This document shows, one piece after another, positions 29,678 to 35,005 of a stretch of DNA of 36,718 nt (position 1 is the stretch's first letter; each line of letters starts with the position of its first letter). The DNA is taken from NCBI GenBank assembly GCA_903847975.1, contig CAINFC010000173.1, positions 1-36,718 of the forward strand, read 5' to 3'. A program made the translations under genes and the position numbers. The DNA is from an uncultured Acidobacteriota bacterium. GTDB taxonomy: Bacteria > Acidobacteriota > UBA6911 > CAINFC01. The notes below the pieces were generated by a model, which saw nothing but the letters and a program-made list of their open reading frames with translations, had not been told where the DNA came from and did no database searches.

Positions 29678-30349
29678 ATGGAATCTAAAACCGTAAAACG
29701 CAGCGATATCGAACGTCTGGTTCGCGAAGCTCTGTCCAAAAAGCTTCCGGGGCCTCCGGCTGCCGGTTCCCCGCCCAACGATCTGAAGGTAAACATCTCT
29801 GCCCGGCACATGCATATCAGCCAGGCGAACCTGGAAGTCCTTTTCGGCCCGGGACACCGCCTGGAGGTCCTGCGCCCCCTCTACCAGGAGGGCCAGTTCG
29901 CCGCCAAAGAGACCGTGACCCTGATCGGTCCCCGGAATCGCATCATTCCCAATTTACGCATACTGGGTCCCTGCCGGAGCCTGACGCAGGTGGAACTGGC
30001 TTTTACCGACGGGATTCAGCTGGGTTTCGACCTCCCCGTTCGCCAGTCCGGGGATATCGACAACACGCCAGGGGGTTATATCATGGGCCCGAAAGGGCTG
30101 GTGGAGATTCCCAAAGGAATCATTCGTGCGGCCCGGCATGTGCACATGGGCCCGGTGGATGCCGAATATTACCGGGTGCGCCACCAGGACAGGATCCGGC
30201 TGCGGGTGAAGGCTGCCGGCTGCACCACGGTTTTCGAAGATCTGCTGGTACGGGTGGATCCCTCTTTCAAACTGGAAGCCCACCTGGACACCGACGAGGG
30301 AAATGCCTGTCACATGGAAGAGGCCGAGAGCCTGGAGCTGTTTGCATAA
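29678..30349 (+). CDS. pduL: BMC phosphotransacylase PduL
   Basis: 223 aa. Two PduL domains carry the metal-binding motifs ARHMHIS (H44, H46) and RAARHVHMGPVDAEYY. Other marks: ETVTLIGPRNRIIPNLRILGP, GDIDNTPGGYIMGPKGLV and GNACH near the end. It converts acyl-CoA and phosphate to acyl-phosphate and CoA inside microcompartments, recycling CoA. Residues ~7-22 (KRSDIERLVREALSKK) form an amphipathic helix, followed by a Pro/Gly linker: a typical encapsulation peptide that targets the lumen. No upstream in-frame start exists before a stop at 29642, so the ATG at 29678 is probably translated from a leaderless mRNA. Confidence 0.95.
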   Translation: MESKTVKRSDIERLVREALSKKLPGPPAAGSPPNDLKVNISARHMHISQANLEVLFGPGHRLEVLRPLYQEGQFAAKETVTLIGPRNRIIPNLRILGPCRSLTQVELAFTDGIQLGFDLPVRQSGDIDNTPGGYIMGPKGLVEIPKGIIRAARHVHMGPVDAEYYRVRHQDRIRLRVKAAGCTTVFEDLLVRVDPSFKLEAHLDTDEGNACHMEEAESLELFA

Positions 30350-30369
30350 ACCAAGATTCTGACGCCATT

Positions 30370-30387
30370 TAGGACGACTAGGACGAC
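30370..30387 (+). promoter_or_regulatory. Duplicated ribosome-binding segment before BMC-T
   Basis: The 9-mer TAGGACGAC occurs twice in tandem (30370-30378 and 30379-30387). The second AGGA is 6 nt from the ATG at 30390; the first is 15 nt away. Confidence 0.5.
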
Positions 30388-30389
30388 TC

Positions 30390-30983
30390 ATGAACGAAGC
30401 GATAGGAATGATTGAAACCAAGGGCTACACCGGCCTGGTGGAAGCGACCGACGCCATGGTCAAGGCGGCCAACGTACGCGTGGCCCGCTGCATCCAGATA
30501 GGCGGCTCTTTTTGCACCACCGTGGTCCGGGGGGATGTGGGCAGCGCCCGCGCCGCCGTGGAAGCCGGACGCCGAGCCGCGGAGTCGGTGGGAGAGCTGA
30601 TGGGGTCCCTGGTGATCCCCAATCCGCATGAAGGCCTGATCCAGCTGTTCCTCGATCCGCCGAGCGCCTCTCCGGCCGGCCGAAAAGAGGCAGCGGGCCA
30701 GGAAGCCCTGGGAATGATCGAAACCAGGAACCTGATTCCCCTGCTGGATGCGACCGATGCCATGCTGAAAGCGGCTCATGTGACTGCCGTCAGCTGGGAC
30801 AAGGTCGGCTCCGGTTACGTGACCACCTTTATCCGCGGGGACGTCGCCGCGGTCAAAGCTTCGGTCGATGCCGGGGTGAGGGCCGCTTCCGCCCTGGGTC
30901 AGGTCATTCTGGCCCACGTCATACCGCGGCCTCATGAAGAGCTCCCTCACCTGGGAAAATTTCTGGCCGGCCTGAGCCGGTAA
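30390..30983 (+). CDS. BMC-T shell protein (tandem BMC domains)
   Basis: 197 aa with two BMC domains (about 1-90 and 108-190), each starting EAxGMIET and ending with the edge motif PNPHEGL or PRPHEEL. BMC-T proteins form pseudohexameric trimers that tile the shell facets and can gate larger metabolites or hold a metal cluster at the central pore. Domain 1 carries the unusual pore loop QIGGSFC (G38-C42, with C34 nearby). Domain 2 has the standard KVGSGY. A central Cys-bound Fe-S cluster as in PduT is possible but unproven. It follows pduL by 40 bp and precedes the kinase by 3 bp. Permuted BMC-T forms are excluded because both domains are in standard order. Confidence 0.95.
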   Translation: MNEAIGMIETKGYTGLVEATDAMVKAANVRVARCIQIGGSFCTTVVRGDVGSARAAVEAGRRAAESVGELMGSLVIPNPHEGLIQLFLDPPSASPAGRKEAAGQEALGMIETRNLIPLLDATDAMLKAAHVTAVSWDKVGSGYVTTFIRGDVAAVKASVDAGVRAASALGQVILAHVIPRPHEELPHLGKFLAGLSR

Positions 30984-30986
30984 CCG

Positions 30987-32204
30987 ATGAGCGACATGAA
31001 AATACTGGTAGCCAACATCGGCAGCACTTCCTTCAAGTTCTGCCTGTTTTCCATGCCGGAAGAGCGGATCCTGGCCAAGGGAGGCATGGAACGGATCGGC
31101 AGCAGCGAGGCGCCTTTCCAGTTCCAGGCGGAAAACCAGCCGCTGCGGAAAAGCGTCCAGCCGGTGGCGGACTATGCCGCCGCTCTGCGCCTGGCATTCG
31201 AAGCCCTGACCGGAGAGGGAGGGGTGCTCCCCTCCGTGGGAGAGCTTTCCGCCATCGGATTCAAACCCATTATCGCCAAAGGATATTCCGGAACCCAGGA
31301 ACTGACCGAAAAGGTCCTTGCGGCCATGGAATCCTTCCAGACGCTGGCTCCGGCACATAACCCTCCCTACATACAGGCGGTGCGTCTCATCCGCGGCGAG
31401 TTCCCGGATATTCCACTGATCGGCACTTTCGAGACTGCTTTTTATGACGCCCTTCCCGAGTCGGCCTGCGTGTTTGCCGTTCCTCAGGAGTGGCGCCGGC
31501 GATTCGGAATCCGCCGCTACGGGTACCATGGAGCGAGCCACCGATATGTTGCCGAGCGGGCCGCCGTGCTGCTGAAGAATCCCGCCGCCCGTCTGATTTC
31601 ATGCCATCTGGGGGGAAGCTCTTCCATGGCGGCGGTTCGCGCCGGAGTGGCCGTCGAATCTAGCTGGGCCATGACACCCCAAAGCGGGCTCCCGCACAAC
31701 AACCGGGTCGGCGAGTTCGATGCCTTCGCCCTCCTTTACCTGATGAAAGACTGCGGCCTCGGCTTGGCAGAGGTGGAGCGGACCCTGATGAAGGAATCGG
31801 GCCTGAAGGGGATTGCCGGAACCCCCTCCGGAGATCTGCGGGACATCCTGGCGGCCGTCGACAGAGGAAGCGCCGAGGCCGGGCTGGCCCTGGAATACCT
31901 GGTGAAGTCGATCCGCAAGTATATCGGGCAGTTCCTGGTGGAACTCAACGGAGCGGACGGGATCATCTTTACCGGCGGGATCGGGGAAAACAGCCCTCTG
32001 GTTCGACGGCTGGTATGCGCCGATCTGGACCAGCTGGGGATCCTCCTGGATCCGACGGCCAACGAAGCGGCGATTCGGCGGGAGGCGGAAATCAGCGCCG
32101 CCGCCTCGCGGGTTCACCTTCTGACCATTCCCACATCGGAGGAAACGGTGATCGCCCGGGAAGCCTGTCTATATTTACAGAACGAAAAGGAAAGGAATAA
32201 CTGA
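30987..32204 (+). CDS. Acetate/propionate-type acyl kinase (divergent, BMC-associated)
   Basis: 405 aa, acetokinase fold. Present: N10 in VANIGSTSF, APAHNPPYIQA, YGYHGASHRYV (H181), SCHLGGSSSMAAV (H207), R240 in NNRVGEFDA, FTGGIGENS and the C-terminal TSEETVIA. Compared with classical AckA the catalytic Asp of FDTAF is Glu (FETAF, E149), the phosphate-binding Arg of HRIVHGG is not kept (FKPIIAKG), and MGTRSGDIDP becomes HNNRVGEFDA. I recall the same GGSSS...NNRVG pattern in kinases from planctomycete-type BMC loci. It would convert acyl-P (lactoyl-P here, inferred) and ADP to acid and ATP, probably outside the shell, as no targeting helix is seen. Confidence 0.88.
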   Translation: MSDMKILVANIGSTSFKFCLFSMPEERILAKGGMERIGSSEAPFQFQAENQPLRKSVQPVADYAAALRLAFEALTGEGGVLPSVGELSAIGFKPIIAKGYSGTQELTEKVLAAMESFQTLAPAHNPPYIQAVRLIRGEFPDIPLIGTFETAFYDALPESACVFAVPQEWRRRFGIRRYGYHGASHRYVAERAAVLLKNPAARLISCHLGGSSSMAAVRAGVAVESSWAMTPQSGLPHNNRVGEFDAFALLYLMKDCGLGLAEVERTLMKESGLKGIAGTPSGDLRDILAAVDRGSAEAGLALEYLVKSIRKYIGQFLVELNGADGIIFTGGIGENSPLVRRLVCADLDQLGILLDPTANEAAIRREAEISAAASRVHLLTIPTSEETVIAREACLYLQNEKERNN

Positions 32205-32205
32205 A

Positions 32206-32484
32206 ATGGCTCAGGAAGCGCTTGGCATTCTGGAAACCCGCGGACTGGTGGCATTGGTGGAGGCGGCCGACGCCATGCTTAAAGCCGCCAAGGTCCATCT
32301 GAGCGGCTCGCAGCAGGTAGGCAGCGGATATATTTCCGCTTTCGTCACCGGGGATGTGGCCGCCGTTCGCGCCGCCGTTGACGCCGGCGCCAGTGCGGTA
32401 AAGGCTTTAGGCGGGGAGCTGATCAGCACCCATGTCATCCCCCGCCCGCATGAGGAAGGCGCGCCTCTGATTCCCCGGTCCTGA
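32206..32484 (+). CDS. BMC-H shell protein
   Basis: 92 aa, single BMC domain that forms the main hexamer of microcompartment facets. It opens with QEALGILETRGLVALVEAAD, has the pore loop QQVGSGYIS (residues 36-44) and the TGDVAAVRAAVDAGA helix, and ends THVIPRPHEE. The ribosome site AAAGGAA is the best in the operon, in keeping with high demand for this protein. The start is 1 bp after the kinase stop. Its stop codon lies in the loop of the following terminator. Confidence 0.97.
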   Translation: MAQEALGILETRGLVALVEAADAMLKAAKVHLSGSQQVGSGYISAFVTGDVAAVRAAVDAGASAVKALGGELISTHVIPRPHEEGAPLIPRS

Positions 32485-32513
32485 CCGGGGGAATACTTTT
32501 CTTTTTTCTTTTT
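32470..32513 (+). terminator. Intrinsic terminator/attenuator inside the BMC operon
   Basis: ATTCCCCGGT (32470-32479), a CCTG loop (32480-32483) and ACCGGGGGAAT (32484-32494, one bulged G) form a GC-rich hairpin followed by ACTTTTCTTTTTTCTTTTT. The BMC-H stop TGA (32482-32484) lies in the loop. The next gene starts at 32532. It should stop part of the transcripts before the two enzyme genes. Confidence 0.8.
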
Positions 32514-32531
32514 ATCACCGGGATCCATACT

Positions 32532-33968
32532 ATGAATCGAATGATCGACCAGAACCTGGTAGCCCAGGTCGTCCAGGAAGTACTTGGAAAGCTGCAGGCC
32601 GGGGGCTTGCAGGCGGAGCCGTCCAAAGGCTGCGGAATGGGAGTTTATGCCACCATGGAAGAGGCGGTGGAGGCCGCCCACGCGGCTTTCCTCAAGCTGA
32701 CGGCCGGAGGAATCGCCGCCCGCCGGAAAGCGGTGCAGGCCATTCGCCGGCTCTGCCTGGAAAAGGCGGCCGAGTGGGGACGGATCGAATTCGACGAAAC
32801 CCGGATCGGACGCCTGGATCACAAGGTCGAGAAGCTGGCCATCTGCGCGGAGCTGGTGCCCGGCGTGGAATTTCTGACCCGCGACGCCTTCAGCGGGGAT
32901 CACGGCCTGACGGTCATCGAGTACACGCCGTGGGGAGTCATCGGGGCGGTAACGCCGGTAACCCACAGCGTTCCGACCCTCACCGGCAACGCAATCAACA
33001 TGATTGCTGCGGGGAATACGGTTGCTTTTAATGTGCATCCCGGCGGGGCGCGGTGCGCGGCCCTGGCCATCCGGACCTACAACCAGGAAATTTACAAAGC
33101 CACCGGGATCGAAAACCTGCTGACCATGGTGGAAAAACCGACCCTGGAAACCTTTGCGGTGCTGGGCAAGCACCCCCTGGTTCGACTCCTCTGCGTGACC
33201 GGCGGCCCGGGAGTCGTAAAAGCGGCCATGCAGGTCGGCAAGCGGGCTATTTGTGCCGGTCCCGGCAATCCTCCGGTGGTGGTGGACGAAACCGCCGACC
33301 TGGACCATGCCGCTCGCTGCATCATCCAGGGCGCGGCTTACGACAACAACCTCCTGTGCATTGGCGAGAAGGAGCTTTTTGTAGTGGAAAAAGTGGCCGA
33401 CGCCCTGATCGCCGCCCTGGTCCGGAACGGAGCCGTTTCGCTGACTTCGGCGCAGATCGATTCCCTGACGCGGGCAGCCTTCACGGCGGAGATGCAGGGA
33501 ACCGCCACTCACTCTCATCCGGCGGTGAACAAGAAATACGTGGGAGCGGATGCTGCCGTCCTGGCCCAGGCGGCCGGGGTCAGCGTTCCGCCCGGCACGC
33601 AGCTGCTCTTCGGGGAAACCGCCGCCTCGCACCCCTTTGTGGTCGGGGAGCAGATGATGCCCTTCCTGCCGCTGGTGCGGGTTCGCAATTTCGAAGCGGC
33701 TGTGGAGGAGGCGGTTCGCGCGGAGCACGGCTTCAAGCATACGGCCATCATTCACTCTCTTAACGTCTGCCACATGACGTATATGGCCCAGGCCGCCGAC
33801 ACCACGCTGTTTATTAAAAACGGGCCCTCGATGAGCGGCCTGGGGCTCAGCGGGGAAGGCTTCCTGAGCTACAGCATCGCCACCCCGACCGGAGAGGGAG
33901 TGACTACCCCGATGACCTTCACCCGGTCCCGGCGCTGCGTCATGGTCGACCAACTGAAGATTTACTAA
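32532..33968 (+). CDS. CoA-acylating aldehyde dehydrogenase (PduP/EutE-like, BMC type)
   Basis: 478 aa. An N-terminal amphipathic helix (residues ~5-21, IDQNLVAQVVQEVLGKL) and a Gly-rich linker form an encapsulation peptide. The catalytic domain follows: EYTPWGVIGAVTPVTHSVPT, FNVHPGGA, VTGGPGVVKAAM (NAD region) and the active-site C276 in YDNNLLCIGEKE, as in PduP/EutE. These enzymes oxidise aldehydes with NAD+ and CoA to acyl-CoA inside microcompartments. With a deoxysugar-phosphate aldolase next to it, lactaldehyde is the likely substrate (inferred). The weak site GGGA precedes the ATG. The aldolase gene follows by 11 bp. Confidence 0.94.
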   Translation: MNRMIDQNLVAQVVQEVLGKLQAGGLQAEPSKGCGMGVYATMEEAVEAAHAAFLKLTAGGIAARRKAVQAIRRLCLEKAAEWGRIEFDETRIGRLDHKVEKLAICAELVPGVEFLTRDAFSGDHGLTVIEYTPWGVIGAVTPVTHSVPTLTGNAINMIAAGNTVAFNVHPGGARCAALAIRTYNQEIYKATGIENLLTMVEKPTLETFAVLGKHPLVRLLCVTGGPGVVKAAMQVGKRAICAGPGNPPVVVDETADLDHAARCIIQGAAYDNNLLCIGEKELFVVEKVADALIAALVRNGAVSLTSAQIDSLTRAAFTAEMQGTATHSHPAVNKKYVGADAAVLAQAAGVSVPPGTQLLFGETAASHPFVVGEQMMPFLPLVRVRNFEAAVEEAVRAEHGFKHTAIIHSLNVCHMTYMAQAADTTLFIKNGPSMSGLGLSGEGFLSYSIATPTGEGVTTPMTFTRSRRCVMVDQLKIY

Positions 33969-33979
33969 GGCAAAAAATA

Positions 33980-35005
33980 ATGAACGTAGTCACCCAGAAG
34001 GAAGCGGAAGCATTTGTGGCCACCGGCGCCAAGGAGTACCGGGTTGGTACGGGAATGCTGCTGACCCCCAGCGCCCGGGACGTGTTCTCGAGCCATCAGG
34101 TGAAGATCGTGTCCGTGGAAGGGCCTTCGGGATCGGCTTCGCCGGTGCCATCGGCCGACCCTGCCAAAATGGAAGAGCTTTTTCGCAGCGAAGAGGCGGA
34201 GCGGATCAAGCGGGAAATCTGCGACATCGGCCGGAGGCTCTGGCAGCGCGAATACGTGGACGGCAACGGCGGCAATATCTCCTGCCGGCTTACGGAAAAC
34301 ACCTTTTTGTGCACCCCGACCCGGGTAAGCAAAGGGTTCATGAAGCCCGAGTCGATCAGCCTGGTCGACGGAGAAGGCCGACAGCTGGCGGGAACCGCCG
34401 CCCGAACCAGCGAAATCACCACCCACCTCGCCCTTTACCGAGGGGAGCCGAAGGCCAGGGCGGTCGTGCATGCCCACCCGGTTCATGCCACGGCGTTTGC
34501 CATCGCCGGCGTAGAGCCTCCCCCCTGCCTGATTCCCGAGCTGGAGGTGTTCGTGGGCCGGGTTCCCGTGGCTCCTTACAAGACGCCGGGCAGCGCGGAA
34601 ATGGCCGCGATCATCGAGCCGATGGCCGCCCAGCACCAGTCCATCCTGATGGGCAATCACGGGGTTATCTGCTGGGGGGATTCCGTCGAGGATGCCTATT
34701 TCAAGATGGAGATTACGGATGCCTATTGCCGCACCCTGATCGTGGCGGCGCACCTGAATCCCAGCCACTCGGGAATCCCGGCGGAAAAGATGCAGGATCT
34801 CCTGGAAATCAAGAAGCGGATGGGGCTGCCGGATCCCCGCTACAACCTGGAGGCGGTAAGGCTTTGCGAAATCGATCCCTGGGAGGTTCTGTCCGGCAAG
34901 GCCTCGCGGTGTTCTCCGGGTCCGGCCCCCGGGCTGGCGGATGTTTCCGAGGATCTGGTGAGGGAAATAACCGACCAGGTGATGAAAGCCCTCAGCCAGG
35001 GCTGA
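33980..35005 (+). CDS. Class II aldolase (fuculose/rhamnulose-phosphate aldolase-like) with extra terminal modules
   Basis: 341 aa, longer than a plain FucA-type aldolase (~215 aa). Core (about 70-290): GNGGNISCRL, TPTRVSKGFM, the catalytic E145 in TSEITTHLALY, zinc ligands H164 and H166 (VVHAHPVHATAF) and H227 (GNHGVI). It probably splits fuculose-1-P or rhamnulose-1-P to DHAP and lactaldehyde. Residues 1-48 form an extra module with LLTPSARD (27-34), reminiscent of the N-terminal segment of EutT-like BMC proteins. The C-terminus (323-338, SEDLVREITDQVMKAL) is an amphipathic helix after a Pro/Gly linker, a probable C-terminal encapsulation peptide. A kinase or isomerase for the sugar is not in the window. 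Confidence 0.9.
   Translation: MNVVTQKEAEAFVATGAKEYRVGTGMLLTPSARDVFSSHQVKIVSVEGPSGSASPVPSADPAKMEELFRSEEAERIKREICDIGRRLWQREYVDGNGGNISCRLTENTFLCTPTRVSKGFMKPESISLVDGEGRQLAGTAARTSEITTHLALYRGEPKARAVVHAHPVHATAFAIAGVEPPPCLIPELEVFVGRVPVAPYKTPGSAEMAAIIEPMAAQHQSILMGNHGVICWGDSVEDAYFKMEITDAYCRTLIVAAHLNPSHSGIPAEKMQDLLEIKKRMGLPDPRYNLEAVRLCEIDPWEVLSGKASRCSPGPAPGLADVSEDLVREITDQVMKALSQG

Follow-up and report, generated by a model that had tools for sequence, protein, structure and literature searches.

How the enzymatic core of a bacterial microcompartment is tied to its shell has been worked out for the Eut system, in which EutQ makes the connection, and partly for the Pdu system, in which PduB and PduM are involved (PMC12487888, PMC9132943, PMC12108088). 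The locus analyzed here raises the question of whether a metabolic enzyme could supply such a tie in compartments of the PVM type. By the window, we mean the whole stretch of DNA that was analyzed, which is 36,718 nucleotides long and corresponds to contig C173 of an 8.1-Mb genome. It carries a forward-strand operon (29678-35005) that encodes, in order, a PduL phosphotransacylase (29678..30349), a tandem BMC-domain shell protein (BMC-T, 30390..30983), an acetate/propionate kinase (30987..32204), a BMC-H shell protein (32206..32484), a CoA-acylating aldehyde dehydrogenase (32532..33968) and a class II aldolase of 341 amino acids (33980..35005). The aldolase is conserved across 80 relatives. Its company of shell proteins, PduL, acylating dehydrogenase and acetate kinase is that of a PVM-type microcompartment, of which class II aldolase is the published signature enzyme (PMC4207490, PMC8217296). 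Just upstream of pduL, an ORF at 29367-29612 matches YjfB_motility with an E-value of 2.1e-6, just above the Pfam cut-off.

The pentamer (BMC-P) genes of this genome are not on the window contig but on contig C230 (L211:4960-7165, genome G000), in a locus that comprises a BMC-H gene, three BMC-P genes and a 2-hydroxyacid dehydrogenase gene and that resembles the acidobacterial ACI type (PMC8217296). Additional BMC genes reside on contigs C63 and C252. No dedicated EutQ was found in the genome, and PF06249, the cupin of the EutQ family, was detected in two of 38 genomes, in each case as a partial match in a short frame.

The aldolase itself has a single Pfam match, to Aldolase_II (PF00596; residues 78-253, E = 3e-48). 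In the Pfam search, no family matched residues 1-68, and PF06249 was absent from the protein. The catalytic core spans residues 74-285 (34199..34834, forward strand, as are all features of this gene), and E145, H164, H166 and H227 are invariant in alignments of aldolase relatives. This core is preceded by a module at residues 1-46 (33980..34117), which contains the motif LLTPSARD at residues 27-34 (34058..34081) and is joined to the core by a linker at residues 47-69 (34118..34186). It is followed by an amphipathic helix resembling an encapsulation peptide (EP) at residues 324-340 (34949..34999). The presence of both a module and a C-terminal helix on the aldolase of a PVM operon is thus confirmed. 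Conservation, taken as the mean frequency of the commonest residue in each segment, is 0.59 for residues 1-38, 0.23 for residues 39-47, 0.38 for the linker, 0.77 for the core and 0.64 for the C-terminal helix.

Structure prediction depicts residues 1-46 as a self-contained mini-domain that is separate from the core. AlphaFold2 was run on the full aldolase with 51 sequences (mean pLDDT 83) and predicted a beta-alpha-beta-beta-alpha-beta arrangement, with strands at residues 2-4, 19-22, 26-28 and 42-45 and helices at residues 6-14 and 30-38. Blocks up to residue 40 have pLDDT values of 92-98, and residues 41-50 have a value of 79. Confidence is low at residues ~50-60 before the core and at residues 311-322 after it; the linker between module and core is predicted with least confidence at about residues 49-60 and is variable in alignments. 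Predicted alone, the 48-residue module takes the same fold (mean pLDDT 89, pTM 0.64). Because these predictions give no inter-domain error, we base the independence of the module from the core on the weakly predicted linker and on the existence of orthologues without the module. The independent N-terminal module proposed by an earlier sequence-only reading is therefore upheld by prediction both in context and in isolation. Comparisons with known structures and families were uninformative: Foldseek of the module against the PDB returned nothing at E≤0.001, the best VIA-align match (Z = 5.5) was to a glutamate dehydrogenase fragment with a common arrangement, and no Pfam model was consistently matched by a set of 41 modules, the best being the unrelated PF24409 with five of the 41.

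Sequence profiles were more revealing. A profile built from the 41 aldolase modules scores Escherichia coli EutT at 21.4 bits and EutQ at 15.1 bits, as compared with 9.1 bits for the best of 4000 shuffled sequences. When the 41 modules were searched against 18,950 NCBIfam models, 33 matched TIGR02536 (best E = 2.4e-5), 20 matched EutT (0.0056) and 15 matched EutQ (0.0018), and each of five further families was hit by a single module; for the module of the window itself, the TIGR02536 match is weak (E = 0.099). Against 1010 ORFs from four eut/cut loci (E. coli, Cetobacterium, Acetoanaerobium and Enterococcus raffinosus), the nine best matches of the module profile (E≤0.0011) are all genes of microcompartment operons, and the first match outside this set has an E-value of 2.8. 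A reverse profile was built from 10 non-aldolase modules, two of which had entered on weak scores (E = 0.32 and 0.65). Among 12,511 ORFs, it finds the window's aldolase at E = 9e-7, recovers 68 of 92 aldolase ORFs at E≤0.01, and has one non-aldolase match, a protein whose gene lies in an operon with shell genes, in a genome of the same class. Together, these searches strongly indicate that the aldolase module is homologous to the N-termini of EutT and EutQ and to the C-terminus of TIGR02536 proteins, over about 45 residues that include the TPxAR motif. The sequence-only reading had described the N-terminal segment as EutT-like by virtue of LLTPSARD, and the profile, NCBIfam and reverse searches agree with it; searching with the module alone bears out the EutT match and adds EutQ and TIGR02536. 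That reading had missed EutQ's sharing of the module and also the published C-terminal EP on such aldolases.

The relationship with EutQ is the most instructive for function. Work on Salmonella EutQ assigns shell association to residues 9-41 and cargo association to residues 62-99; deletion of either segment separates shell from cargo, according to evidence from deletions, colocalization and isothermal titration calorimetry (ITC) (PMC12487888). The helices that follow residues 9-41 bind cargo encapsulation peptides; for EutQ 1-99 and the EutC peptide, the Kd is 7.6 uM. EutQ without its cupin domain still forms compartments, whereas EutQ without its N-terminus does not (PMC12487888). The stretch of E. 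coli EutQ that aligns with the aldolase module is residues 2-37, which by this alignment is the shell-binding part of EutQ.

The module probably extends to PduM as well, judging from sequence. In PduM, the encapsulation peptide is at the N-terminus, and mutants without the protein show a partial separation of shell and core (PMC12108088, PMC9132943); according to a 2025 paper, homologues of PduM are known only from Pdu compartments (PMC12108088). Its C-terminus is linked to the module through flavoproteins whose genes occupy the position of pduM, between pduL and the gene for the pentamer. Two such flavoproteins that end in the module were observed, in Rahnella (L254:8639-9334) and in Ilyobacter (L255:9628-10335), and were compared with Kosakonia PduM (L257:8638-9117). 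The three best matches of the Rahnella module alone are TIGR02536 and both PduM models (E = 0.0014, 0.0025 and 0.013). Two PduM C-termini outscore all of 1000 shuffles with the non-aldolase profile; with the aldolase profile, their scores are weak (1.9 and 0.0 bits) and exceed those of 994 and 915 of 1000 shuffles.

Several other proteins carry the module in distinct arrangements. Stand-alone ORFs of ~88 residues occur in Gram-positive-type eut operons of Cetobacterium (L208:14233-14499, directly after a gene of the EutN/CcmL family) and Acetoanaerobium (L209:13661-13978). In them, the module is followed by a linker and a helical tail, an arrangement like that of EutQ 1-99, with no cupin. Gram-positive EutQ lacks the shell-binding helices (PMC12487888), and these ORFs may represent the missing linker, split off as a separate protein. 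Acetoanaerobium also encodes a phosphotransacylase of the PduL/EutD kind with a C-terminal TIGR02536 module and an EP-like N-terminus (L209:12771-13673). The sole non-aldolase match of the reverse profile (L194:3067-3816, genome G018) joins an EP-like helix, the module and an RpiB-like domain, and belongs to a microcompartment operon whose own aldolase (L013) is without the module.

At the other end of the aldolase, the C-terminal helix has the form of an encapsulation peptide, that is, an amphipathic terminal helix of 15-20 residues on a flexible linker (pLDDT<50 at residues 311-322). Its hydrophobic moment is reached by 0.8% of shuffled sequences. The EP-like helix claimed from the sequence therefore holds up: it is predicted, has a significant moment, and is kept in 106 of 107 shell-bearing orthologues. 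This agrees with published work, which states a C-terminal EP for the ACI-type pfam00596 aldolase and reports this aldolase family also in PVM and GRM5 loci (PMC8217296). N-terminal EPs had also been claimed for PduL and the dehydrogenase. Helices are present in both (about residues 8-25 and 4-22, respectively), but their moments are not significant, being reached by 15% and 36% of shuffles; an N-terminal EP on type II dehydrogenases is described in published work (PMC8217296). With a profile of the C-terminal tail, the number of shuffles (of 500) that score as well is two for PduL, six for EutE, 12 for EutC and 68 for the window's dehydrogenase, which weakly supports the bridging of shell and core proposed below. 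We also considered the idea that the C-terminal helix corresponds to EutQ's cargo-binding helix, but the profile did not support it, as 120 of 500 shuffles scored as well.

To establish how widely these features occur, we scanned a genome collection, obtained 510 relatives of the aldolase, and kept the best 80, nearly all from Verrucomicrobiota and one from Omnitrophota. In these best 80 of 510, the module scores at least 15 bits in 79, in a ranking by whole protein that leans somewhat to module bearers, and a shell gene is present in the fetched piece for 73. Given the module on 79 of 80 relatives and the C-terminal helix in 106 of 107 shell-bearing orthologues, we conclude that the features are not due to chance. 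In 37 genomes selected because they encode the aldolase, the count of strong module matches is exactly one per genome (four have a second match of 15-17 bits), and the window's genome likewise has one strong copy. A further sample of 288 Verrucomicrobiota genomes was taken without regard to the aldolase; with at most 24 candidates scored per genome, the module was detected in 32 of them, one of which has an extra 18.7-bit match. BMC-P genes occur in 31 of these 32 genomes versus 17 of the 256 others (Fisher test, 3e-28, ignoring kinship). All 29 newly fetched module loci encode aldolases that end in an EP-like helix. The 17 genomes with BMC-P and without the module mostly lack an aldolase of the PVM kind, and no module was found in their fetched loci.

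The module is not a feature of every compartment. It was found in one of 42 other loci (genomes G226, G240 and G392 contribute two rows each, and nine of the 42 have no shell gene according to the query set) and was not detected in the remaining 41, which include ACI-type loci with an aldolase among the shell genes. Therefore, it is not needed for every compartment. A search of a plasmid collection found no Planctomycetes PVM aldolase covering 80% of the query.

Orthologues from genomes without a shell are informative. We defined these as lacking detectable PF00936 (BMC-H/BMC-T); in seven of the nine genomes, a search for BMC-P likewise found none. The motif TPxA[RKHQ] is present in 105 of 107 shell-bearing orthologues (a set from which two duplicates were dropped) and in none of the nine shell-less ones, which represent about five lineages by our count and come from draft genomes that may miss genes (for example, G031 is 76% complete and G025 is 93% complete). 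The module profile itself had served to find 29 of the 107 orthologues and one of the nine; when these are excluded, the counts are 77 of 78 versus none of eight. The module as a whole is present in 106 of the 107 shell-bearing orthologues; in two of the shell-less nine (L045 and L176), an eroded module scores above 15 bits. The catalytic residues are invariant in shell-less L005, L007 and L008. The C-terminal helix is retained in five of the nine, and may therefore serve another role too. In L045 (L045:9001-10083), TPxAR is lost, and a strongly acidic, cysteine-rich linker follows the module.

The closest relatives of the window's aldolase, among the best 80 of 510, are PVM aldolases of Verrucomicrobiota. 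In a tree whose root is unfixed and which contains one partial long branch, the window's aldolase groups with Verrucomicrobiota rather than with its own class (support 96/88), which suggests horizontal transfer of the aldolase into its host, which we take to be a member of the Acidobacteriota.

We think it reasonably probable that the aldolase is at once the signature enzyme and a two-ended linker between shell and core. From the analysis as a whole, we infer bridging of the following kind. In PVM-type compartments, the N-terminal module would dock on the inner face of the BMC-H/BMC-T shell, the C-terminal helix would co-assemble with the N-terminal helices of PduL and the aldehyde dehydrogenase, and flexible linkers, one between module and core and one between core and C-terminal helix, would flank the catalytic domain. 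Class II aldolases of this family are homotetramers, as established for FucA, so each assembled enzyme would offer the shell four anchors and the core four helices. The aldolase would then replace a dedicated linker such as EutQ. Supporting this reading are the homology of the module, the known role of the corresponding part of EutQ, the fold prediction, the single strong copy per genome, the co-occurrence with shell genes, the loss of the motif with the shell, and the lack of a dedicated EutQ in the window's genome. Against it, the EutQ result covers one type of shell, whereas shell proteins vary; the module went undetected in ACI-type and other loci; the C-terminal helix persists in five of the nine shell-less orthologues; the C-tail profile falls short for EutQ's cargo helices (120/500) and for the window's dehydrogenase (68/500); EutT has the module, yet no EP-like helix was identified in it; and PduM stays with the core, not the shell, when the PduB N-terminus is missing (PMC9132943).

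Other explanations were weighed against linkage. The module might be a second targeting tag for the aldolase alone, fixing this enzyme to the shell, with cargo held by another link such as a PduB-like extension. In Pdu, residues 1-37 of PduB are the main shell-core link (PMC9132943), EutT bears the module without being a known linker, and the C-tail has low similarity to the helix of the window's dehydrogenase. However, if it were a tag, one would look for it on more than one cargo enzyme, and strong matches were restricted to the aldolase in 37 of 37 genomes and 29 of 29 loci. Moreover, most non-aldolase carriers that we have seen have an EP-like helix in the same protein. We regard a simple tag as unlikely.

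Considerably less likely, in our view, is control of metabolism inside the compartment, by way of substrate, cofactor or oligomer, which would account for a module common to EutT and TIGR02536. The module does occur on enzymes (the EutT adenosyltransferase, the phosphotransacylase fusion and the RpiB-like protein), but its carriers have no common chemistry, the shell-less orthologues keep their catalytic residues and lose the motif, and the part of EutQ needed for compartments is the N-terminus, not the cupin (PMC12487888). Finally, the N-terminal segment, being in frame and conserved, could belong to the ordinary aldolase fold. The sequence-only reading had itself named this as one outcome that would count against its proposal, and it did not occur: structure prediction, alone and in context, returned a separate domain, the solved structures of relatives start at positions equivalent to residue 67 or beyond, and the segment is absent or eroded in close orthologues, with the shell-less ones retaining the catalytic residues and lacking the module's motif. 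We consider an integral segment very improbable.

A broader proposal can also be made, to which we give slightly less than even odds. Several metabolosome families (EutQ, EutT, TIGR02536, the stand-alone eut ORFs and PduM) would share one small domain as their anchor on the shell side, usually joined within a protein to an EP-like helix. In PVM-type compartments, evolution would have put the signature enzyme between the two, so that the enzyme couples core to shell. The class II aldolase as PVM signature and the C-terminal EP on ACI-type aldolases were already known (PMC4207490, PMC8217296). We found no mention of the N-terminal module in the literature searched, a body of text that most subscription papers lay outside. 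The module provides a concrete candidate linker for PVM-type compartments, which degrade fucose and rhamnose; it joins EutQ and, probably, PduM; and the ~88-residue ORFs of Cetobacterium and Acetoanaerobium are a candidate answer to the question of how Gram-positive EutQ manages without shell-binding helices.

Comparison with known systems places the aldolase among several partial counterparts. The N-terminal region of EutQ from Salmonella and E. coli has the same homologous module, followed by a linker and helices. In EutQ, an acetate-kinase cupin comes after the helices, whereas the window's protein has the aldolase core between module and helix, and homology between the EutQ helices and the aldolase's C-terminal helix is unsupported by profile. 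PVM-type class II aldolases (fuculose/rhamnulose phosphate aldolases) of Planctomycetes and Verrucomicrobia have the same core and operon partners, and the consulted passages on PVM-type and ACI-type aldolases do not mention the N-terminal module (PMC8217296, PMC4207490). The N-terminal extension of EutT is a homologous module with an LTPSAR motif, as in the aldolase, but sits on a cobalamin adenosyltransferase. PduM, a linker of Pdu compartments, has an EP at one end and, judging from the intermediates, a probably module-like C-terminus, comparable to the EP-like helix and module of the aldolase, with the order of elements reversed. CcmN of beta-carboxysomes consists of a core-binding domain and a C-terminal peptide. 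It has been named as a linker (PMC12487888). With no sequence relation claimed, the aldolase would resemble it in the principle by which it works.
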